From Spinellus fusiger (taxonomy: Eukaryota > Mucoromycota > Mucoromycetes > Mucorales > Phycomycetaceae): DNA of 64,000 nt. The stretch spans positions 372,001-436,000 of the forward strand of contig JALLLS010000017.1 in the NCBI GenBank assembly GCA_025094145.1, read 5' to 3'. A program made the translations under genes and the position numbers. Below, piece by piece: positions 5,027-62,400 of this stretch (positions are counted from its first letter, which is position 1; each line of letters starts with the position of its first letter). The notes beneath the pieces were generated by a model. The model made no database searches. It worked only from the letters and a program-made list of their open reading frames with translations, and was not told where the DNA came from.

Positions 5027-7911
5027 ATGACACTAACCAGTGAAGAAGTCAACATTATTGTATACAGATACCTTCAAGAATCTGGTGAGTCATCTTTCAC
5101 TTGTTTCTGTCTGCTACACTATGCTACACTATGCTATACTATGCTATACCATGCTATACTATACTACACTACACTACACTATGCTATACTACACTATGCT
5201 ATACTATGCTACACTATACTATGCTACACTATACTATGCTACACTATACTATGCTATACTATACTACACCACACCACACTATACTATACTACACTACACC
5301 ACACCACACCACACTATACTACACTACACCACACCACACCACACTATACTACACTACACCACACCACACCACACTATACTACACTACACCACACCACACC
5401 ACACTATACTACACTTCATTAGACACACACACAAGCCCATCTCTGCTCAGAAACGCGACCTGTCTTTTTCTTCTTTTTTCTTCTTTTTTTTCTTCTTTCT
5501 TCTTCTTACCTCTACACTGCACTAGGGTTTCGCCATTCATCCTTTGCATTTCAATATGAGAGTCAGGTGCAAACATCAGCTTATCGTGATATCGAGATTC
5601 AACAAGGCATGCTTATCAATATTATCCATAAAGGACTTCAATTCATGGAAATTGAAACCCACATGAATGAGGTCAGTGGCAGCCATAGTCTATGGCTCAC
5701 TCTGTCTGACAGTCTATAGGATGGCGAGTTGATGGAGTGTAATGCTCCCTTTTCGCTTCTAAAACAGCACCAGTGCGACTTGACGGGGAAAGTCTATGAG
5801 TCTGCGGATGAAGCCCAAGGCACCCACACTTCCAATCCAAGCACAAAACGGCAGCGAAAAGAAGAAAAGAAAGCGCAAAAGGAACGTGAAAAGAGAGCAC
5901 GCAAAGATCTGGACGAGGCAGGTACAGGTACAGGCACAGGTACAGGTACTGGTGCAGGTACTAGTGCAAGTGCAGAGGCAGGGAGTGCAAATAGTACAGC
6001 CACCCTGTCGACACTGTCTCTACTGCCCACGTCCACAGCACCCATGTCTACTCATGCCAGCCACCCTTCTGCTACTGCTCATCCTATGCCTACTCATGCC
6101 TCTCTCCAGTCTCTCAATGGACACACCATCAAAGAAGAAGCCGAGAGTAAGTAGCTGTGTTTTCTCTCTCTTTTTCTCTCTCTTTCTTCTTTGGTGGAGA
6201 AGAAAGAGACAAGACACTCATCTAAGAAATATACCCTATAGCCTCCACCATAGAACCCACACAGTCCAAACCCCATACAGAAGGAACAAACCCCCATACT
6301 GTGATTGATCAGAAGGATGTGATTGTCCTAGAAGGCCACCAGAATGAAGTGTTTTCTTGTTCATGGAATCCTGTGCTTCCTAATCTACTGGCATCAGGGT
6401 AGGGCTTCCCGTCGTAGAAAGAGACCTTGCTTCAGAATGACTCATCTGCTTATAGTTCTGGAGATGCCACCGCTCGTTTCTGGCAGGTGCCTGATGAAGG
6501 GCCTGTGCCTGAGCCGATTGTTCTTAACCATCTTCCTAATCTGAATGATAACAAGGATGTCACGACTCTTGATTGGGATGTAAGTCCACTTTTTTGTCTC
6601 ATCCTGTGTCTCATCCTGTGTCTCATCCTGTCTCGAATGGCCTTGCTACCACCATTAGCCCTCAGGAACATTTCTTGCTACTGGCTCTTATGATGGTCAG
6701 GCACGTATATGGACACAAAAAGGTAGTTGGACAAGAGAGCGTGGGAGAGAAGGAGGAGGAGGAGGAGGAACTCAACTGCTTCTAGGCCAATTGCGGTTGG
6801 TGATGTCTCAACACAGAGGCCCCATCTTTTCATTAAAGTGGAATAGAAAGGGAGATCTTGTTCTCAGTGGCAGTGCAGACACAACAACCATTGTATGGGA
6901 TCCAGAGACAGGGGATATAAAACACCAGTTCAGTATGCATACTCGTAAGTGCACTGGTGTGATGTAGTGTAGTGTAGTGTAGTATATAGTGTAGTGTAGT
7001 GTAGTGTAGTGTATTGGTGCGCTGGTGGAGGAGACAGGAATAATCCCCCTGTACAGTAGCCATTCTGGATGTGGATTGGATGGACAATACTACCTTTGCT
7101 TCGTGTTCTTCTGACAAGACCATCTATGTCTGTCGCGTGGGGTCTTCCACTGCCCTCAAGAAATGGGTGGGCCATGAGGTACATTGAATGCGTCGACAAG
7201 ACATGAACAGGAAGACTAACGCCTGGTCCCTACAGGATGAAGTAAATGCAGTGCGTTGGGATCCTACAGGACAGTACCTTGCTTCTTGTTCTGATGACAT
7301 GACCACCAAGATATGGTCGCTGGCTTCAGATCAGCCTGTGCAGGTCATCAAGGGCCATCGACTACAGATCTATACATTGCAATGGGCACCCTACACGCCA
7401 TCAAAAGACGAGAGTGCACCACGGATATTGGCCACAGCTAGCTTTGATGCCACAGTGCGTCTGTGGGATGCTCTGACGGGCAGCTGTCTGCATGTGTTGA
7501 AGAACCATTCAGAGGCTGTTTACTCTATTTCTTTTAGTCCTGATGCACGTCTCTTGGCGACAGGCAGTTTTGATGAGGTGCTGAATGTGTGGTATGCCAA
7601 GGTAAGAAAGTGACTTTTAATGTTCCTCTTTCTTTCGACAAGCCGGACTTGGCATGAGAGTGTTGATGTTGATGTCGTTACTAATGCCGTTGCTAATGTC
7701 GTTGCTAGGATGGAACACTGCAAAAGACATTCAAGGCCAATGGTGGTATATTTGAGGTACATTTCAATAAGAATGGTGATAAGTTGGCCGCATGTACATC
7801 AAACAAACAGGCAAGTGACCTTTGATCAAGTGCAGTCCAATCTCATCTTTGTTTTCATTCTATTTTCTATGCATTTGTTTATAGCTGGTGATTTTGGATA
7901 TGAAATCATAA
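5027..7911 (+). CDS. TBL1/Sif2-like LisH and WD40 repeat protein
   Basis: Eleven exons: 5027-5084, 5526-5671, 5720-6146, 6242-6398, 6456-6579, 6659-6722, 6786-6944, 7060-7178, 7236-7601, 7709-7810, 7885-7911; 582 residues. The N-terminus (LTSEEVNIIVYRYLQESGF) is a LisH motif followed by the GLQFMEIETHMNEDG segment typical of TBL1/TBLR1. Then comes a Lys/Glu-rich linker with a Thr-Gly repeat, and seven or eight WD40 blades ending in the propeller's closing strand (NKQLVILDMKS). Family members are core subunits of SMRT/NCoR- or Set3C-type histone deacetylase corepressors in the nucleus. Intron 1 (442 nt) is filled by a satellite. Intron 10 has a GC donor (CAG, then GCAAGT, at 7811), the only choice that reaches the conserved ending. 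Confidence 0.9.
5108..5414 (+). repeat. Composite satellite filling intron 1 of the TBL1-like gene
   Basis: First about 150 bp of CTATG/CTACA pentamer variants, then near-identical copies of a roughly 40-bp unit made of CTACACC and CACACC pieces. It has few G residues on the plus strand, so the intron transcript is a C/A/U-rich array. It makes this intron about five times the local median length. Confidence 0.8.
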
Positions 7912-8428
7912 TTCTTTACCTAATGTCCCAAACATCCTCAAACTGTCTATTTACACTCACACTCACTCACACTCACACTCACATCTATGTCTACTCCACA
8001 CAAGCAAAGCATATATCTTCTATAGTCACCTGTCTTTTTTTTTTCTTTCTTTTTTCTTGTTTTGTAGACACTCTAAAAAACACACACACACACACACTAT
8101 ACACCTAAAAACACACCTAAAAACACGCTCACTACACACCTAAAACACGCTCACTACACACCTAAAAACACGCTCACTACACACCTAAAAACACGCTCAC
8201 TACACACCTAAAAACACGCTCACTACACACCTAAAAACACGCTCACATCTATAGTCTTTTCTTTTCTTCTTCCTTGTCTCTTCCTTGTGATGCTGCTTAA
8301 AATGGTGTTGTGCAAATACGCTTGTTGTTTTGTTATTTCCATTTATTGTTTTCATGTTGATGACCCACTCTTTATTTATTTTGCATTATTATATCTCTGT
8401 GAGAAACCCACATACACTCCACTAGAAC
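7912..8428. repeat. Intergenic spacer with a 23-bp minisatellite (about 8099-8246)
   Basis: Between the 3' ends of the TBL1-like and oxysterol-binding genes. After (CACTCA) and (CA) runs near 7950-8095, a unit of about 23 bp (ACACACCTAAAAACACGCTC plus ACT) recurs six to seven times with little variation. No ORF of note. Identical spacers are absent, so it is not a CRISPR array. Confidence 0.8.
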
Positions 8429-11011: not shown

Positions 11012-12486
11012 TCATGAGCGGTAGTCGGCATTAATTGTCACATAGTCATGACTCAAATCGCATGTCCAGAACTTGGCATCACTGGCACCAAGATGAAGAT
11101 CCACCTCAATAAAAAGGTCCTCCATCTTCAGGATATCAGACGCACGTGCCTCATCCATACGGTGGGGCTCTCCTTGTGTCATCAAAGAGAGGGGTTCTGA
11201 TCCATCGGTAGGGATAAAACGAACACTCACTTGATGAGGGTCCACAGGAACCCCGCTGTGGCCAAGACTGGCACAGATTCTTCCCCAGTTGGCATCCTGA
11301 CCAAACAGGGCTGTTTTTATCAACAGAGAGGTTGAGAGATGAGAGGCTGCTTTTTTGGCTGATTCAAAAGTATCTGCTCCCTATTGATGGATAGGATAGA
11401 TGGATAGGATAGGATAGATGGAAATGTAGATCGATAGATCGATAGATAGAACAGAAAAGAAAAAGAGCATGGTGTCAACAAACCCAGTGAGATGGAAGAG
11501 AGCTCTTGTCCACTTACCTTGACATGGATCGTCACAAACTTGGTGGCGCCCTCACCATCTCTCACCACCAACTGAGCCAAGTCAATGGCAAAGGCTGTCA
11601 ATTGATCTCTAAATACAAAATACGCCTCGTTCTCCTCGTCAATCCGCACACCACTCGCACCATTGGCAAGAACAACAATCGTATCATTCGTACTCATGTC
11701 CCCATCCACACTCATGGCATTGAAGCTGCGGTCCACAGCATACACCAGGGCCTGCTGTAGGAGATCCGAGGCCACATGGACATCAGTGACAATGCATCCC
11801 AGCAAGGTTGCCATGTTAGGGTGGATCATCCCTGCACCCTTGGCAATGCCTGCCATCCGAAACACACGCCCTAGCGCCAGAGCGCAGTGCTGCGAACGTA
11901 GCTTGGGGAAGGTGTCGGTCGTCATAAACGCCTCGGCTGCATTGGCCCAGGCAGCGGGCCCACTGTCCAGGGCATGGCAGGCGTCGTGGATGCCCTGCTC
12001 CACCCTGTCCATGGGCAGGGGCTGTCCAATCACACCCGTGGACATCACCAGGACACTGTTGGGCTCGCCTGTCCATTGATCCACGGCTGCCTGCATCTGT
12101 CTGGCATGCACCACGCCCTGCTCGCCAGTGACTGCATTGGCACATCCAGAGTTTGTGACAATGCCGCGAAGAGAGGCCGGGTTCTGGTGGAGCGTGGCCC
12201 TGCTGACAAGGACGGGGGCGGCCTGGAATGCGTTGGTGGTGAAGACAGCAGCCCCTGAACAGGGTGTCTCGGACAGAATCAGTGCCAGGTCCGGGTGTCC
12301 GTTCTTTTTGATGCCGCAAGAGAGGCCAGCGACCTTGAATCCGTGTGGGTAGGTGCCTTGGGTGACAATAAGGGACTGCTTGCGAGGGGATAGGTGAGTG
12401 TAGGACTTGTGTCGGAAGGAGAGGCGAGTGGTGGCTCTGGCATGGATCAAGGGACTGTAGAGCAATCTATAGGTGAGCAAGGCCAT
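11012..12486 (-). CDS. argJ: Mitochondrial glutamate N-acetyltransferase / ornithine acetyltransferase (ArgJ)
   Basis: Two exons (11518-12486 and 11012-11380), 445 residues. After an Arg/Ser-rich presequence of about 35 residues come the ArgJ hallmarks: GTYPHGFKVAGLSCGIKK, VFTTNAFQAAPV, TNSGCANAVTGEQG, VMSTGVIGQPLPMD, KGAGMIHPNMATLLG (self-cleavage before the Thr of ATLL, giving alpha and beta chains), MSVDGDMSTNDT, VRDGEGATKF, FGQDANWGRI and the ending CDLSHDYVTINADYR. The enzyme makes N-acetylglutamate and regenerates ornithine in the acetyl cycle of arginine synthesis in mitochondria. The single intron (137 nt) carries a GATAGATC microsatellite. A 7-bp tandem repeat starts directly before the start codon. 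Confidence 0.95.
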
Positions 12487-17578: not shown

Positions 17579-17624
17579 GTCAACAAGACAGGCACAAAAT
17601 AATAATAAACAGAAAGTAAGATAC

Positions 17625-18958
17625 ACACCAGGAGATCTTTAGGATATAAAAGGAAATAGCCAAACTACAATTGTTTAAGAAATGACACATCGATTTGAGA
17701 AGGAGCAAAAATAAATTATGTATTCATGTTAGTTTTTAAATAAAGATTATTATGTAGATTTACCTGTAAATATCTGAATCCCGAAGGAAATCACTTTCGA
17801 TGTGGCGATATATAATATGAATACGAATATCTATTCTTATGTGGCTGTATAGATACCTTTTGATGCATTCACATCTCTGTTCCAAACAATTCCGCAACTT
17901 TGGCAAGCGCGGATATTGTTGAAATTCACTAATACCTCAGTGAGGATATTTGTGTTGCAAGTATGGCAGATCTTGAGAATAAAAAAAGAAAACAAAACAG
18001 AGTAACTGTTAAAAGAGCATTTTATATTGAGTTAGAGGTCAATCATGCTTACCCTCGATGTAAAGAACTCATCAACATCAACCAAAAGAAGATCACCATC
18101 TTTTTGTCTCTTTTTCAGTGATTGATATAATATTCTTGTCAAACCAACACGATGGCCTTTGAACTTGACAGCATCCTTTCCTTTCATTCCTGTGCCATAG
18201 GCAATGACTGGCGGCTTGGTAGGATCATGCTCCAATCCTTTTAGGTGCCAATACCCCTTTTCAATAATAAAATAGTAGTAAGAATAATTAGTTCGAGATG
18301 TATTAATGTACTCTCTATGTGTGTCGTATTACCCTTGCACTGGCACCTTCTTCTTGCCTTTGTCTTTGTAATGGAATCACTGGGTTTATTATAGTAAAAG
18401 AATATACAATAGAAACTGACTAACATGTCAGACATAATAAACATATACAAACACTTACCAGATCACAACTGTTGGTTTATATGCCAGACAAAGGCAAACA
18501 AAATAAAGAGGGTAGAAGATATGGAGAAAAACAGACAGTGTGGTTGGCAGGTATTTATATCCGAACAAGAGGACAATACGAAACTTCACAAGTCATTTGC
18601 TTAATCAAAACTACCAAAGTAATGCAGACTACAACAACATTCTAGAAAGAAAAAGAATTGCTTAAAGAACAGTTGCCTAGTTACCCGTTGTATTCAAATC
18701 GTGTTGTGTTCCTGTTCATGTATCCTCTTTGATTTCCCTAGACTATACTTTATTCCAATACTCTATTTCTTTGTCCCTTCTAGAGACCAAATATCTATAC
18801 ATTTATCTCTCTAGTGGTCTTGTTGATAACCTTAGTACTCTTTATTACAAATACTTACAAACCTTTGATTTTAAATACAGTTCCATAAAAGGCAAGAAAT
18901 TTTGGACGTAAAGGGATGATTGTGTCACTGATTAAAGGCCAGAAAATCTGCTGGTGTG
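17625..18958 (-). mobile_element. Element A: 1.33-kb TIR transposon, TA-flanked, with Fanzor remnant
   Basis: The left end reads CACACCAGGAGATCTTTAGG and the right end, read inward on the other strand, CACACCAGCAGATTTTCTGG, so the termini are imperfect inverted repeats of about 20 bp. Both are flanked by TA, as expected of Tc1/mariner-type target duplication. The first 330 bp or so are almost identical to the left end of element B at 27748, and the last 100 bp resemble the right ends of B and C. Inside, on the minus strand, lies the C-terminal part of a Fanzor protein. No transposase was recognised; the element may be non-autonomous or a deletion derivative. It sits 46 bp upstream of the WDR53-like start codon. 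Confidence 0.82.
17837..18256 (-). pseudogene. Fanzor (TnpB/IS605 OrfB-like) nuclease, C-terminal part in element A
   Basis: Two exons (18053-18256 and 17837-17971) joined over an 81-nt GTAAGC...CTCAAG intron read 112 codons without a stop. They contain PVIAYGTGMKGKDAV, KGHRVGLTRILYQSLKKR, then LLLVDVDEFFTSR, which places the RuvC-II glutamate in the usual V-D-E-aromatic-T-S context. A four-cysteine zinc finger (CHTC ... CQSC) is followed by GIVWNRDVNASKGI, with the RuvC-III aspartate of the RD-x-NA motif. Fanzors are eukaryotic RNA-guided DNA nucleases related to bacterial TnpB and to Cas12. Upstream sequence may hold one more exon (HYKDKGKKKVPVQ), but the N-terminal domains and RuvC-I Asp are not visible, so this copy is probably inactive. 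Confidence 0.8.
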
Positions 18959-19405
18959 TAGAGTGTAGTCGGAGTTTATACAAGTACGAGTGAGGTCTCT
19001 GTTTGGACATTGATGGCCCTTGGATGAGGTGTAGTTTCTTCCTTAGCAACACGGCAACAACATTTTACTTGCCTGTGAAAGCATAGATAAAGAACATGGA
19101 TAGAAAAAAGCATAGAATTAAGTCATGTATCTATGGTAACCCTCTTTCTTTCCTTTTTCATCAGACACATCACTATAGGTTGTCATGGATCCCACTCCAC
19201 AAATCATTTCTTACGCCTTTAGGACACTAACATTTTCTTTCTCTCTCTCTTTTTTTCCCTGATACTGTCATATGTCACACAGGTCGGTGTTTTTCCTTGT
19301 TGCTTCTTTATTTATTTATTTATTTATTTATCTATTTATTTATTTACATGGAGAAAGTAAATAAACTCTTTTCTTTTTCTTTTCTTCACAGAGACACATC
19401 CTGCC
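18959..19405. other. Spacer between element A and ask1
   Basis: AT-rich, with a TTTA repeat at about 19308-19345 and a C/T-rich tract ending CTTCACAG at 19391, which could be a 3' splice site of a 5' leader intron of ask1. No coding region seen. Confidence 0.5.
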
Positions 19406-27581: not shown

Positions 27582-27747
27582 AGGAATAGAAGGGACTGCT
27601 TTATAATGGGCTATTTAAAGGCACGTCCCACCCCGCTGATCTTCAGTCAAAGAAGAAAAAAGAAACCCCGCTTTTCTCTATTAAGATCCAATACTGCTTT
27701 TTATTTCTATTTATTTTATTTTTATTGTCTATCACTGCAACTCTTTA

Positions 27748-30263
27748 CACACCAGGAGATCTTTAGGATATAAAAGGAAATAGCCAAACTACAATTGTTT
27801 AAGAAATGACACATCGATTTGAGAAGGAGCAAAAATAAATTATGTATTCATGTTAGTTTTTAAATAAAGATTATTATGTAGATTTACCTGTAAATATCTG
27901 AATCCCGAAGGAAATCACTTTCGATGTGGCGATATATAATATGAATACGAATATCTATTCTTATGTGGCTGTATAGATACCTTTTGATGCATTCACATCT
28001 CTGTTCCAAACAATTCCGCAACTTTGGCAAGCGCGGATATTGTTGAAATTTACCAATACTTCGGTGAGGTTATTTGTGTTATAAGTGTGGCAGATCTTGA
28101 GAACAAAAATAAGAGTAACTGTTAGAAGAGCATTTTATATTGGGTGAGAAGTCAATCACATTTACTCTCGATGTTCGAAATTTATCAACATCAACCACAA
28201 GAAGATCACCATCTTTGTCTTTTTTTTCAATGATTGATATAAAATTTTTGTCAAACCAACACGACGACCTTTAAATTTGATATTATCTTTTACCTTTATT
28301 CCTGTGCCATAAACAACAACTGGCAGGCTGGCAGGTATTCATATCCGAACAAGAGGACAATAGGAATTTTCACAAGTCACTTGCTTAATCAAAACCACCA
28401 AAGTAATGCAGACTACAACAACATTCTAGAAAGAAAAGAATTGCTTAAAGAACAGTTGCCTAGTTACCTGTTATGATCAAATCGTGTTGTGTTCCTGTTC
28501 ATGTATCCTCTTTGATTTCCCTAGACTATACTTTATTCCAATACTCTATTTTTTTGTCCCTTCTAGAGACCAAATATCTATACATTTATCTCTCTAGTGG
28601 TCCTGTTGATAACCACAGTATACCTTTATTGCAGAATAAAAGATTTATTTTACAAAGCTACATAGTATAGATCTTGAGGCTACTTATATACATATCTTTT
28701 TAAGCTATAAGGATCAAAGCTATACGATAATAACATCTCAGTAAATTCAGAGATGGATTTCTTTTTCTTGTCCTATGTATGTTTCAGGGAAGAGAGAAAC
28801 CCCTCTTACAATAAAATCACTTTCTGGAATTCTATGGACTTGAAATACAGGACCAAGATTATACACACTGTAGGATAGGGCAGCCACCTTTCCCAGTCTG
28901 CTTGGATATTCTATGAAATCGATAGCTATTGCTTGAGAATAGCAAATTAGACAAATTCATAGTAAAAAAAAATAGCAAACTAGTATAAAAGTATAGTTGT
29001 CTACATCTTTAATAAAATAGACTTTGATCCAAACAGCTTCCTAGAGTATAAACAAGATAGGCTTTAAGAACTTGAACAACTGACTGCTTATTGTTCTCGA
29101 CTTGTTTTCTTTGGTTGGTTAATGTGTTTGAAAAGAACCTTTTCACTGTCTGTCTGTCTGTCTTGGCATTGACTATGGACTGTGTAATTAAACACTATAA
29201 AGTTGGATAAAAGGAAGAAGTAAACCTGACATTACAACTCAGTCACTGCATTTAATGTTTAACATACATTGTCCATAAAATAGAACCAAACTCACTTGTG
29301 TTAAGAGCATTGTAGACATTCATTGACTCAATCTTTATAATCACTTCAACAACTATCTTATTGTAACTGGTATTAACAATAGTACTTGATGACAACAAGG
29401 TATTGTTTCTAATACTGGGCTTTAGGCTCAAGGCAAATAGAGTGTGAATTGTTTGACTTGTAAATCTAACTTATGAATTTTAACTTAATTATAGGAAAGT
29501 AAAGGCTAAAGTGATACCTCACCAGAATGAAAATATTTTCTATTCTTTGGTCTTGTTATTATCTTGTTATTTCTTACACTGTCTATACAACTTAATATTT
29601 AAGCACTTATTGAGATAAGCATAACTGAGCAAGGTAATGTGCTATTATTAACAAAGAGAAACAATAGAAGGTGATAGACACCACCAAGGACTATTCTTGA
29701 GATAAAAAGGTAAGCAGTGTCTTCATCTGGGCTTGAGCTCATTGTATTCCATAAGACATAGTATTGACTCTTCTTCTAATAGATAACATATGGATTATTA
29801 TTCTCAAGACAGGCACTAAGTACAAGGTAAGCCTATTATCTCTCTTGATTGAACTATTACTAATACACTCTTCTGTTATTAGATAGGTTAAGACTCTTTC
29901 TCAAGTCAGTCTCAGGCGGTCTTCTTCCTTCTATACTGTCTAGAGTGCCTAGGGTGTATTCTCTAGTGATATCTATCTCCCAATAACAAGGCACAAGGCC
30001 TTTAGGGTATATATTCTATTGCTATGAGAGAACACATTTAGGCAGTATCTATAGTCATAATACACTATTACAATAAACAATTTTATCCACCAACACTATA
30101 TTTTATTGATAATACAATTTGATAGTGAAGTATACTACAAAAAGAAGTAGTAGTTTAGATGCTTGCAAACCTATTCATCTTAAACACAGTTCCATAAAAG
30201 GTAAATAAATGTCTCAAAAGGAAGGAGATATCACCACTTAAAGGCCAAAAAATCTCCTGGTGT
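27748..30263 (-). mobile_element. Element B: 2.5-kb relative of element A, decayed
   Basis: The left end is CACACCAGGAGATCTTTAGG, identical to element A. The right end, read inward, is CACACCAGGAGATTTTTTGG, so B has the better-preserved inverted repeats. TA flanks both ends. 27748-28095 is nearly identical to A. B then lacks about 300 bp present in A (the region before the V-I-A-Y-G segment) and, after 28622, has about 1.5 kb that A lacks. Part of that extra DNA (about 29934-30130) is shared with element C. No transposase ORF survives. The mosaic pattern suggests A, B and C are different deletion products of a longer element. Confidence 0.8.
27961..28286 (-). pseudogene. Fanzor C-terminal remnant in element B
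   Basis: The zinc-finger exon (27961-28095) is open for 45 codons and nearly identical to that of element A, but the first CxxC pair is CHTY and so has lost a ligand. The preceding exon (about 28166-28286) has a one-base loss in an A-run that breaks the frame. The residue at the RuvC-II position is Lys instead of Glu (VDVDKFRTSR). Three independent lesions mark this copy as dead. Confidence 0.75.
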
Positions 30264-30436
30264 GTACAAGTCAGAAAGAGAAAAAAAGAGAGAAAAAGAG
30301 AAAAAAAGAAAAGAAAATACTTTGAACTGTACGTGTCCTTGGAGAGATCGTCCAGTGATCACGTGTACAGTGCACTCTGGAGACTGCCATGAGACTGCTT
30401 GCTACCCATGGTCCCTTGTTGGGCTGTTACTTATAG

Positions 30437-48904: not shown

Positions 48905-49078
48905 AAGAAATGGGACGCAAAAAAAAGGCTTTTTCTGGTGTGACCCTCTTGGCTGTGACCGTCCTTGTTATCCAGTGCCTGTTATCCAATGGAGAATAAA
49001 ATACCATCCAATCACATGCAAGTGTCTATCTATCTCTATCTATCTATAAAAAAATAAAATAAATAAATAAATAAGATA

Positions 49079-49320
49079 AATAAGATAATGATATATTATA
49101 ATAAGATAATAAGAAGAAGATAATAATAAGAAGAAGATAATAATAAGAAGAAGATAATAATAAGAAGAAGATAATAATAAGAAGAAGATAATAATAAGAA
49201 GAAGATAATAATAATAATAATAAGATAATAATAATAATAAGATAATAATAATAATAAGATAATAATAATAATAAGATAATAATAATAATAAGATAATAAT
49301 AATAAAATAAAATAAAAAGG
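49079..49320. repeat. A/T-purine microsatellite array
   Basis: GAAGATAATAATAA units at 49096-49206, then (AATAATAATAAGAT) units to about 49305, ending in a G-run. On the minus strand it is open in all frames, producing spurious Tyr/Ile/Leu-rich frames. Confidence 0.9.
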
Positions 49321-49738
49321 GGGGAGAAGGAGGGGGGGGGGAGCAATAGAAATAGTAAAATAGTAAAATAGTAAAATAGTAAAATAGGAAATGAAACAGT
49401 AAAATAGGAAATGAAATAGCAAATAGAAAATGAAATGGCAAATAGAAAATGAAATGGCAAAATAGCCAGTAACAAATAAGGATGAGTCAATAGCCAATAG
49501 AACACCGGACATGGCATGACGTCCCTTTGTGTGGATACCATGGCGTCATTCTTAGGGGAGAAGCACCTGGAATAGCACGTGATGGCATGGGACAGTGCTT
49601 CTCGTACAGTGTGCAGTATGTGCAGTGGTGAAGGAGTGTCTGTTGTGTCGACCTGTTTTCTTTATTTTCTTTATTTCCTTTTCCTATTTCCTTTTCCTAT
49701 TTCATTTCCTATTTTACTGTTTTACTATTTTCCGTGTC
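49321..49738. other. Spacer 5' of the Cdc25-like gene
   Basis: AGTAAAATAGTAAAATAG and AAATAGAAAATGAAATGGC repeats to about 49460, then ordinary DNA, and TTCCTATTTCC units just before the start codon. Some TTCCTATTT units are complementary to the GAAATAGGAAA-type units upstream. Confidence 0.6.
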
Positions 49739-53410: not shown

Positions 53411-53412
53411 TA

Positions 53413-54608
53413 CACACCTAAAGATTTTTGGGATATAAAAGTAAATATAGGGACAATAAAATATCACTACTTTTATGATTGGCTGATATGTTTAAAAAAG
53501 GTATTTTCGCTGTCTAAATGAACTATTTCAAACTCTGTCTGCCTATTCTAGCAATAACTACACTATTTTCTGAGAATAGTGGTACATTTTTGAGGAATAA
53601 AAGAGTATAGAAATGTAGTATGGTTCAGAAAAGACTTGGCTGTATCTTGATGTAGTGTAGCGATAACTACACCGGATTCTTTTTTTTCTTTTTTTCTTTT
53701 TTATGTTTTGGTGGGTTGGCTACTATTAGCTAGCTGTTTGTCTGATTGTTGGAGATATATGTCCTGACAGGAATAACCCGGCTTCTATTCAATATCAGTG
53801 ATTGAGCCTTTTTACTGTTACAATCTTTAGAGCAGGCTCCATGAAGAAAAGATAAAAGACGAGTTGACCTTTTTTCTTTTTATACTATTTCTGTTTTATG
53901 GCTGGTTTTCACATAGCATTGATTCAATCCGTGATATAAAAACTAAGTTGTGCTAAAGCATAAAGCCTGTATATCTATCAATGGAAATTGTGAATATTAT
54001 GGGCTTTCTATGCACATATACAGTCCCATACAATAAGTGAGTGGACAGAATTATTATTATTATTATTATTATTATTATTTTGAGAAATAGAGATATATCT
54101 ATCAGTACAAGATGTTCATAATAAAAGGTTCATGGAATAACACAAGATTTAGAGTAGATGTTCTTTAACTGATTTTCTACATTCTCATTATAAAGAGACT
54201 GCTCAGTGCTTTGTAACAGAGTCTTTATTTTTAATCACTCTAGTCCCTTTATCATTGCCCATAACTGTCTATGGTGTCTAGGGTGTCTAAGGTATACTTC
54301 CAAGCATAGTGATCTATCTCCCAAGGATAAAGAACAAGGCCTTTTAGGGTATAAATTCTATTGCTATGAGAGAACACATTTAGGCAGTAGCTATAGTCAT
54401 AATATACTATTACAATAAACAATTTTATCCACCAACAATCTATTTTATTGATAATACAATTTGATAGTGTGATATCCATAAAAGGAAACAATTATTTGGA
54501 TATCCTCAAACCTTTTGATTTTAAACACAATTCCATAGAAGAGAATAATCCACATTCTTTAAACGGATGATTGTATTGCCTATTAAAGGCTAGAATAATC
54601 TTTGGGTG
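53413..54608. mobile_element. Element C: degenerate member of the A/B family
   Basis: The left end CACACCTAAAGATTTTTGGG follows ATTA, and the right end TCTTTGGGTG is followed by ATTA. About 54271-54478 closely matches 29934-30130 of element B, and the last 90 bp match the right ends of A and B (AAACCTTTTGATTTTAAACA, then TCCATA and a TTAAAGGC block). No Fanzor sequence is visible, so C looks like a short non-autonomous or strongly deleted copy. It contains an (ATT) run at 54049-54080. Confidence 0.65.
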
Positions 54609-59470: not shown

Positions 59471-62400
59471 TTATTGTGTTGTGCTCTCTATTAAAGACAT
59501 CTTTTTGAATGGCACCAGCACCTCATAAATAGAATTTGTATTCTTTGATACTTTCCGTATCTCCTTTCTCATCTGTCTTTCTTCCTTGGACATATCCTTG
59601 TAGGTATTTCTTTGTGCCGTGGCTTGTTCTTGTTCTGATATGGAGTGCATGATAGCATCTCTTGACATTTGTGTTTGTGTAAAGACACTAGGATGGCTTG
59701 ACTTTTTAGTAGGCTTGAGTCCAACAAGTGTCATATAAGCCATGTGTCTGTGAGCATGTGATTTACGCAACTTCAACGACACACGCACATGGTCAAACAA
59801 GTGAAAAACAATAGCATGGGGAAGGTCGGCTGAGGTGATGGAAACATGCGTTGGCATTTTTGACTCGATGCTGCAATTGGGTATATTATCATCTATTACA
59901 GACAATCATGAATGAATGAGTAGACAGTTGAGTAGATAGTTGAATAGACAGTTGAATAGACAGTTGAATAGACAGTTGAATAGACAGTTGAATAGATAGT
60001 TGAATAGACAGTTGAATAAATAAAGAAAATAGCCAACACTAAATATTACCTGATGCAGTGTTGGAAATAAGAGATAGAGGAATAATAGTGGATCCATTCT
60101 TATCAAGTAAATAAACAGGACCCTTGAGACCAAGTCTATGGGAAAAAAAAGTGAGAATGCATCCACACATCATGACTGACAAAACCACTTTACTTTGGGA
60201 TAAAGACATAAAATCCATTGGAGCGTATTTCAGAAATCACGCCATTCTCAATCAAAGGCTCATCTGAAGTCTAATTACAAGGCATCAGTCAAACTCTTTT
60301 CACTTGTATCAATCGACTTACATGCTGTAGAATATAAAGGCTTTGGAAGAGTTCTGTAGAATCCTAACAGAATGTATAAAATACCATCGCTGGAGAGGTA
60401 GACATAACTGTAATGACTTACCCTTTGTGCTAGTTTGGATTCTCTCGACTTCAGGTTGAGATTGCTGCAAATATTGGCTATCTTGCTGCTGTTAACCATA
60501 ACTGTTCCACGTTGACTATCTGCAATAGTAACTGCATCTTGAACACACATTAACAATTGTCGATGTGCTACCACATCAGCATATCTTCGAATGGGAGACT
60601 AGACAGATGCACAGGGGTGAGAATAAAGAAACACTTATTTATCCTTTCCAATTTGCTTTCTTACGGTGAAATGTGTATAATAATCAATAGCAAGTCCATA
60701 GTGATAATAGCTGGCTACATCGTGTAGGCCGGATGAAATATACCTATTTAAATGACAATGTCAATGGACTGTTTTTCAATCTTGTTGGTATTTTCTTTAC
60801 CCAGCCTCATTCATAGCCATCACCGTCATGCTTTTGAGTATAAGCCCTAGCTCAGGATCATTGCATTCACGAGCAATGATTTCTAATGATCTTGCCAATG
60901 TCTTGTTGGTGGAGAAATCAACAGAGAACCCCTATAGAATATAGAGGTGAGTAAAAGGTGAATAGATTCAATAAAAAGACTTACTCTACTCTTGGCCGCC
61001 TTGAGAAGCCTATCAAATTGACTTGCTGTAGGTGCAGGATGGCGACGCAATAAAGCTGCATCTCTAAAGCCTTGGTAAACTCTCTTTCCAACAGAAGAAT
61101 TAGCCATAATCATAGCTTCGGCTACTAGTCCATGGATCTCCATGCTGTCCTTGGGAAGTAATTCATTGAGTTAAGAACACGTTTAAAACCAAATGGAAGC
61201 AGTTTTGGATCCACTCCATAGTATAAAAAAGGATATTGATATCAGTAATCTTATGGTCCTTTGTAATTTTAAACTTGATCTCCGAACTTTCAAGTTCCAA
61301 TGCACCAGCAGCTAAGCGCCTATTCTATAGAGAGAGAGAAGTAAATAGACAAGGGACAAGAAGAGTCAGATATTTACCCGCATCACACGTAATAATTTTG
61401 CTAATTTCTCAATAGATGGCTTGAGCTTTTTGCAAAGGGCAGGTGCTATAGATAATAATTAATTAATAAATAAAAACCCTTTCTTTCTTATCTTTACAGA
61501 TATAAACTTACCTAGACCTGTAGCTACGGATTTACCATCCAGTAACTCTTGTGCTTGTTCGTATTCCATTTCACAAGCTGATCGGATGATGGTTCTTCCA
61601 AACCATATAGACACCACATTATAAGAACTATCGAGTGTCCAAAGCACAGAGACTAGAGTAAATAAAGCTTAGTCATTGTGGCAATGCTTGAGATATACCA
61701 GTATAACGGTCCACATTTTCCCTTAATGAGCATACACGTTCACTCAGTACAGACGGAAGCATATCAAAGCGTCGATCTGCCAAGTAAACAGTTGTTCCTC
61801 TATGAGTATTAAATATAAACAAGTAAGAGTTTCATTAGAATATTTGACACGGAAACAAAACTACCTTGCTCTTGCTTCAAGGTCTGTGGGTGAATTTTCT
61901 TTTACGAAATAGGTCACATCAGCAATATGAACTCCCAATTCAATGTTTCCATTTTGCAATTCATTGATAGAGAGTGCATCTGCAGCTGTTAGAATATATT
62001 CATCATGCTACACTACCATCAATATCTTGACAATTGGGAGGGTCAATGCTAAAAATGAATGATAAGAGATTGATTCTCTTTTGTTGTATGTATGTGGATG
62101 GGTGTGTGGATGGGTGTGTGTGTATTTTACCTGAAGACAGTATTGGATCTTAGATCTCTTCGTCGTTTAATTTCTTCCTATAAAATGTACTGTCAGTCCT
62201 ATTTTTTTTCCTTGGACTGAATGTCTATCTTTACTTGATCTGGTCTCCATGGCGTGGTAGGAGTATCCGTAGGCATTTCTTTCAGAGACGCCTCACTAAA
62301 TCCCTGACTTGCTTGAGAGACAGAGATACCATGCTCAACAAGAATGGCAGATATTTCTGTATCCAGCTGGTGAATAGGTCCTATTACAAGGCATCAGTGT

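Follow-up and report, generated by a model that had tools for sequence, protein, structure and literature searches.

A Fanzor gene fragment carried by a probably non-autonomous, TA-inserting transposon family of Spinellus fusiger

A transposon family of Spinellus fusiger (Mucorales, Phycomycetaceae) carries the last exons of a Fanzor gene between terminal inverted repeats (TIRs). At a probability of about 0.88, our preferred explanation is that these elements are non-autonomous, TA-inserting TIR DNA transposons, in which the 3' module of a Fanzor gene was joined to another 5' module, amplified, and later reduced to a 1.34-kb sub-line; the gene would be a pseudogene, and the element would be moved in trans. 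The analysis started from a window of 64,000 nucleotides (C79:372001-436000) and was extended to the genome assembly, which comprises 38.08 Mb in 197 contigs. Features of the window are listed in Table 1, where copy A is the short element analyzed in most detail.

Table 1. Features of copy A and of related sequences in the window
Feature	Position	Strand	Remarks
Copy A, TIR element	17624-18958		1,335 bp; ends are 20-bp inverted, TA duplications outside
TA target-site duplication, gene-3' side	17622..17623	.	from sequence
Left terminal inverted repeat, 3' of gene	17624..17643	+	CACACCAGGAGATCTTTAGG
Right terminal inverted repeat, 5' of gene	18939..18958	-	CACACCAGCAGATTTTCTGG
TA duplication plus G	18959..18961	.	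TA is 18959-18960; gene-strand 5' flank is ..TCTA, putative motif resembling a target-adjacent motif (TAM)
Internal deletion junction of short form	18851..18853	.	longer copies have 0.9 to 1.9 kb here
Tract shared with copy B	17622..17921	.	300 bp, 100% identical to copy B (27746-28045)
Short coding piece upstream	18333..18380	-	..SITKTKARRRCQCKG
Penultimate exon	18053..18253	-	67 codons; ..VDVDEFFTSR (presumed RuvC-II Glu)
Last exon	17837..17971	-	44 codons plus stop; zinc ribbon CxxC..CxxC, NRDVNAS (presumed RuvC-III Asp)
Trp codon in A	17882..17884	-	TAG in 19 of 38 copies, TGG in 18, TTG in 1; the stop precedes RuvC-III
Best-conserved part of gene-3' 150 nt	17624..17685	-	candidate guide-RNA scaffold 3' end or transposase-binding end
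Putative guide site of ~15 nt	17607..17621	-	flanking host DNA; by analogy with Fanzor1 reRNAs (PMC10711439, excerpts)
Copy B, longer-form member	27746..30266	-	2.5 kb, internally rearranged; gene-5' flank GTA is an exception to the CTA bias
Decayed relative	53412..54608	.	right limit approximate; has gene-5' module (54268-54541) and similar terminus

A reading of the window made without database searches (the sequence-only reading) had already described copy A as a TA-flanked TIR transposon. Its 20-nt inverted termini and the TA at both sides agree with that description, except that the element starts at 17624 and not at 17625. The 20-nt terminus pattern, with at most one mismatch, has four matches in the window, as against 0.01 expected. 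Among the fetched loci of the family, TIRs and a TA duplication at both ends, one of the criteria for Tc1/mariner elements, are present, and a few degenerate ends have no TA. The decayed TIR relative in the window, which has the terminus CACACCTAAAGATTTTTGGG and the same gene-5' module, suggests modular exchange among TIR families. The neighborhood also includes an ordinary host gene of the ArgJ family at 11320-12486 (PF01960, 335 bits) and short tandem arrays at 8085-8256, 5066-5459, 49055-49350 and 59893-60036, with spacings of 23, 10/15, 17 and 12 bp, respectively.

The family is large. The terminus pattern TACACACCAGNAGATNTTNNGG, with up to two mismatches, has 1,797 matches in the genome (905 + 892), as against three (2 + 1) for a reversed control. 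A DNA search with the element gave at least 45 matches, with the best 40 of 1,386 candidates scored, and the 39 best matches other than A itself are 84-99% identical to it. The loci fetched for comparison (L001-L058) overlap and correspond to 38 places including A. In 17 of the 20 longer fetched regions, a second match to the gene-5' end of A follows after an internal gap; longer elements for which both ends are seen measure about 2.3-3.2 kb, and their internal part, measured in 16 fetched copies, 0.9-1.9 kb. In the short form, 12 fetched copies read across the same deletion junction (L005, L006, L009, which is A, L010, L011, L017, L027, L029, L033, L035, L036 and L038). A limited search of titles and abstract beginnings in the open-access literature, on Fanzors in fungi or Mucor and on non-autonomous TIR elements, found no description of the family, and no open-access literature was found on transposition in, or the genome of, S. 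fusiger.

The coding remnant of copy A consists of three pieces on the minus strand, separated by GT..AG introns. The spliced product has 134 amino acids, including 8 residues upstream of the first coding piece (18380-18333). It matches PF07282 with 44.5 bits (E 1.7e-11; cut-off 26.3), which upholds the earlier identification of a C-terminal piece of a Fanzor-type protein; searches with the profiles PF01385 and NF040570 gave no result. The two exons first recognized read as described, with their motifs and GT..AG boundaries, although the 112 codons then counted are 111 plus a stop and the piece at 18380-18333 had been overlooked. The motif order of Fanzor1 ([TS][TS]xx, C4 zinc finger, RD) appears as TSRICHTC..CQSC..NRDVNAS, in which we take the catalytic labels RuvC-II Glu and RuvC-III Asp to apply as in Table 1. 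When the PDB was searched with the C-terminus alone, the TnpB-like L79 ranked first (E 0.009), with EFFTSR over EYLTTK and NRDVNAS over DRDENAA; weaker matches include an unrelated viral protein. Genome-wide, PF07282 reaches an E of 0.001 or lower in at least 150 matches, at least 147 of them over the cut-off, among the best 150 of 457 candidates scored. With the N-terminal part and the RuvC-I Asp both missing, and with its pseudogene-like behavior, the remnant is not expected to cleave DNA.

The RuvC-I stretch was not found, by tblastn with partial proteins, in the window copies or the 38 fetched family places. It does exist elsewhere in the genome. Queried with the RuvC-I portion of P0001, the genome gave 42 matches, 18 of which span the Asp residue (7 without stops, 11 with stops inside), down to a last match of only 36% identity. 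The earlier expectation of longer relatives elsewhere in the genome is supported by these 18 other places. The stretches that resemble RuvC-I, CGVDLGRKHIF and CGVDPDRKHIF, occur in P0001 and P0003, the latter being L059; L059 and L060 represent one RuvC-I-containing copy on C127. In this copy, the only one that was read (2.6 kb of it), the reading frame is broken downstream. A profile of eight RuvC-I proteins, compared with the PDB, placed the Spizellomyces punctatus Fanzor first at a weak E of 0.019, with DPN on DPN, followed by an unrelated peptidase (E 0.31); a PDB search with P0009 alone gave no match. D383 and N385 are among the metal ligands of SpuFz1 in the available part of PMC10432273.

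Nine longer copies align with the C127 copy solely over the stretch between the linker and the 3' end, as does the window, and their gene-5' side is therefore unlike the DNA of that Fanzor. We rejected the idea of a Fanzor N-terminus hidden inside the longer copies, as this nine-copy comparison and tblastn with the partial relatives P0001-P0008 found none. Six short open stretches from the longer copies have no Pfam match over the cut-off.

We propose the following history. A gene-3' module, made of the last Fanzor1-type exons and the downstream end of the element, would have been joined to a gene-5' module unlike that of the one Fanzor copy compared. The chimera would then have been amplified, and one sub-line, shortened by another 0.9 to 1.9 kb, would have spread in the 1.34-kb form. 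Movement would have been in trans, by a transposase recognizing the CACACCAG termini. No transposase with these termini was found in the six open stretches of longer copies or by comparing the listed termini with DDE_3 places. DDE_3 domains have at least 174 matches in the genome, several in open frames over 430 amino acids, with the best 150 of 1,544 candidates scored. By eye, among the matches listed, two DDE_3 matches lie within 3 kb inside a terminus (C1:726862/725160 and C125:18211/15715), which may be a chance proximity.

The sequence-only reading had taken the intact catalytic end of copy A as a sign that it decayed recently from an active relative. Assessment of the other copies led us to reject this idea. 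The comparison of reading frames covered 38 copies, all of the 39 aligned ones except copy B, which lacks part of an exon. Only five of the 38 (L005, L007, L008, L009 and L035) are open through both exons, a result on which alignment and tblastn agree. Eight of the 38 (L001-L008) form a biased sample, having been picked by zinc-ribbon score; they include three of the five open copies. The other 30 were picked by DNA similarity to A, and the two open ones among them are A and one further copy. Twelve copies have the truncation in common, the TAG codon is shared as given in Table 1, and the open frame of A lies partly in the tract common to copy B. Furthermore, alleles present in one or two copies comprise 86 replacement, 32 silent and 5 stop changes and look neutral (neutral replacement-to-silent expectation, 2.44). 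Several copies (for example, L001, L002, L006, L015, L029 and L034) shift frame in one lysine-rich stretch at residues 47-52 of the penultimate exon, either by one shared slip or by repeated slips in an A-run.

Alleles in three or more copies have a different distribution, with 49 replacement, 33 silent and 3 stop changes. Replacements are fewer than expected under neutrality, and the older lineages were therefore under some constraint. We read this as selection on full-length ancestors, with which a period of function as a fragment is also compatible. A kept, functional mini-Fanzor, consisting of the zinc ribbon and RuvC-II/III and serving some purpose other than cleavage (for instance, binding RNA or repressing relatives), could draw on this constraint and on the uninterrupted frame of A, which runs for 111 codons and has GT..AG splice sites. 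However, TAG stands before RuvC-III in half of the copies, alignment and tblastn both show 33 of the 38 frames to be interrupted, low-frequency changes look neutral, exons are no better conserved than introns or neighboring noncoding parts, and A's own open frame coincides with the tract common to copy B. A functional fragment of this kind therefore seems very improbable to us, and we favor a pseudogene.

The frame of A is best understood from its mosaic structure. The near-identity to copy B that had been noticed over the left 200 bp holds over 300 bp (Table 1); in the next 300 bp, A and B, which lie about 10 kb apart, are 80-87% identical. Another copy, L010 (C79:444004-445096), lies 8 kb past the window and is 98.6% identical to A over 249-1340 and about 89% over 1-255. 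At the stop codon site, L010 has TAG and A has TGG. Because this codon lies inside the tract identical to B, the open frame of A is probably a product of exchange between copies, in either direction, and not a mark of recency. L010 also has about 250 bp near the last Fanzor exon that copy A lacks; at the edges, element sequence overlaps by 7 bp, and this looks like a small nested insertion.

The flanks of the two ends differ. Genome-wide, with exact patterns, C precedes TA at 28 of 35 gene-5' ends and at 138 of 336 gene-3' ends (Fisher p 1e-5), where the gene-5' count covers one exact form (four T) and the other common form (five T, GATTTTTCTGG) is covered in fetched loci only. In the fetched loci, a set that overlaps the genome-wide one, the counts are 22 of 28 and 14 of 39 (Fisher p 0.001); 31 gene-5' ends and 2 unclassed ends were first found, and 28 were kept by requiring TA and the right-end body. 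The background frequency of C before TA is 21% in the window and 20% in the flanks, and the gene-3' ends also lie above it. Copy B is one of seven gene-5' exceptions in the four-T set.

As a sequence pattern, this gene-5' bias resembles a Fanzor TAM of the form (Y)CTA, and a transposase with unequal ends fits it equally. The TAMs reported for Fanzors are located 5' of the target; SpuFz1 has CATA, and CA is conserved ahead of its 5' inverted repeat (PMC10432273). One passage of PMC11423790 gives the TAMs of SpuFz1 and GtFz1 in the opposite order to PMC10432273; we followed the latter. In our view, there is a slightly better than even chance that the bias reflects solely which targets the transposase itself prefers, with unequal effect at the two ends. 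C exceeds the 21% background at both ends, as a common CTA/TAG preference would give, whereas the difference between the ends (80% vs 41%) demands that they be strongly unequal. Pending a control family that is free of Fanzor, we rank such a transposase as more likely than a Fanzor TAM.

The sequence-only reading had placed a guide RNA at the gene-3' end; this location is reasonable, as it matches that in published Fanzors, and such an RNA is plausible by analogy. In the accessible part of PMC10711439, the target-site duplication of Fanzor1 elements is predicted to lie within the guide-RNA scaffold, and reads extend ~15 nt past it. In an alignment of 34 copies, conservation within the gene-3' 150 nt is highest over the final ~60 nt, and parts of the gene-5' side are equally conserved. 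Predicted folds of the gene-3' end of six sequences were no better than those of shuffles (z from -0.92 to 1.88), a double change was found in 1 of 15 consensus pairs, and an Rfam search at the gathering threshold gave no result. Neither folding nor covariation thus supports the RNA.

The element might accordingly be viewed as a carrier of guide RNA, with an omega RNA from the gene-3' end and the host flank as guide. A Fanzor from elsewhere would cut the empty donor site, the copy would be restored after excision, and the C before TA would be its TAM. The flank counts of both overlapping sets, the conserved terminal ~60 nt and the SpuFz1 precedent (PMC10432273, excerpts) speak for this idea. 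Against it, no RNA fold was supported, and no intact full-length Fanzor was seen in the part read of one of the 18 RuvC-I places or among the annotated partial proteins. Moreover, a transposase with unequal ends could produce the same bias, C is in excess on the gene-3' side too, copy B is an exception, and one exact gene-5' form was counted genome-wide. We consider a guide-RNA carrier unlikely. Its extension, that hundreds of gene-dead copies would form a genome-wide library of guides with their own host flanks, served in trans by few Fanzor genes, and that (Y)CTA would be the TAM left by re-homing, is still more doubtful. The preferred explanation also supposes that a Fanzor formerly acted on these sites; this, the mobilization in trans and the order of events go beyond what was observed, namely the structure, the copies, the common junction and stop, the near-neutral recent changes and the RuvC-I-matching relatives.

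Parasitella parasitica also belongs to the Mucorales. No PpFz1 chain was among the PDB matches of the C-terminus, P0009 and RuvC-I-profile queries. PpFz1 of this species is a Fanzor1 of a mucoralean fungus, with a reported TAM of ATN, in contrast to the (Y)CTA bias in Spinellus (PMC11423790, available part). Another system close to the Spinellus family is SPu-1 (SpuFz1) of S. punctatus, for which excerpts of PMC10432273 and PMC3627910 describe a Fanzor1 element with TIRs, TA duplications, a conserved gene-3' end and many gene-less derivatives (134 ghost loci). SPu-1 also has a base bias upstream of its 5' inverted repeat, and in that case the bias is the TAM (PMC10432273, same excerpts). Unlike SPu-1, the Spinellus gene has introns, its derivatives retain a C-terminal fragment, its terminus is far more numerous, and the bias is (Y)CTA and not CATA. 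Tc1/mariner Fanzor1 elements, as described in the accessible text of Bao and Jurka 2013 (PMC3627910), likewise have TA duplications, TIRs and Fanzor-only members; no mariner transposase with the Spinellus ends was found, though DDE_3 matches are abundant in the genome. The Chlamydomonas Fanzor1 families CRe-1,2,3 likewise have high copy numbers and are often 5'-truncated with the 3' part retained, but they are Helitrons, whereas the Spinellus element is of the TIR/TA type (PMC3627910, accessible text).

On the preferred explanation, this family documents well how a Fanzor gene has collapsed into non-autonomous derivatives. It also calls for caution, because an open frame in a single copy can arise by copy-to-copy exchange. 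With about 1,800 terminus matches, the family offers many insertions whose flanks can be read directly for a TAM-like signal, with no need for biochemical screening. Should the asymmetry stem from the nuclease, there would be evidence on a genome scale for an influence of Fanzors on the survival of particular insertions in a eukaryote.
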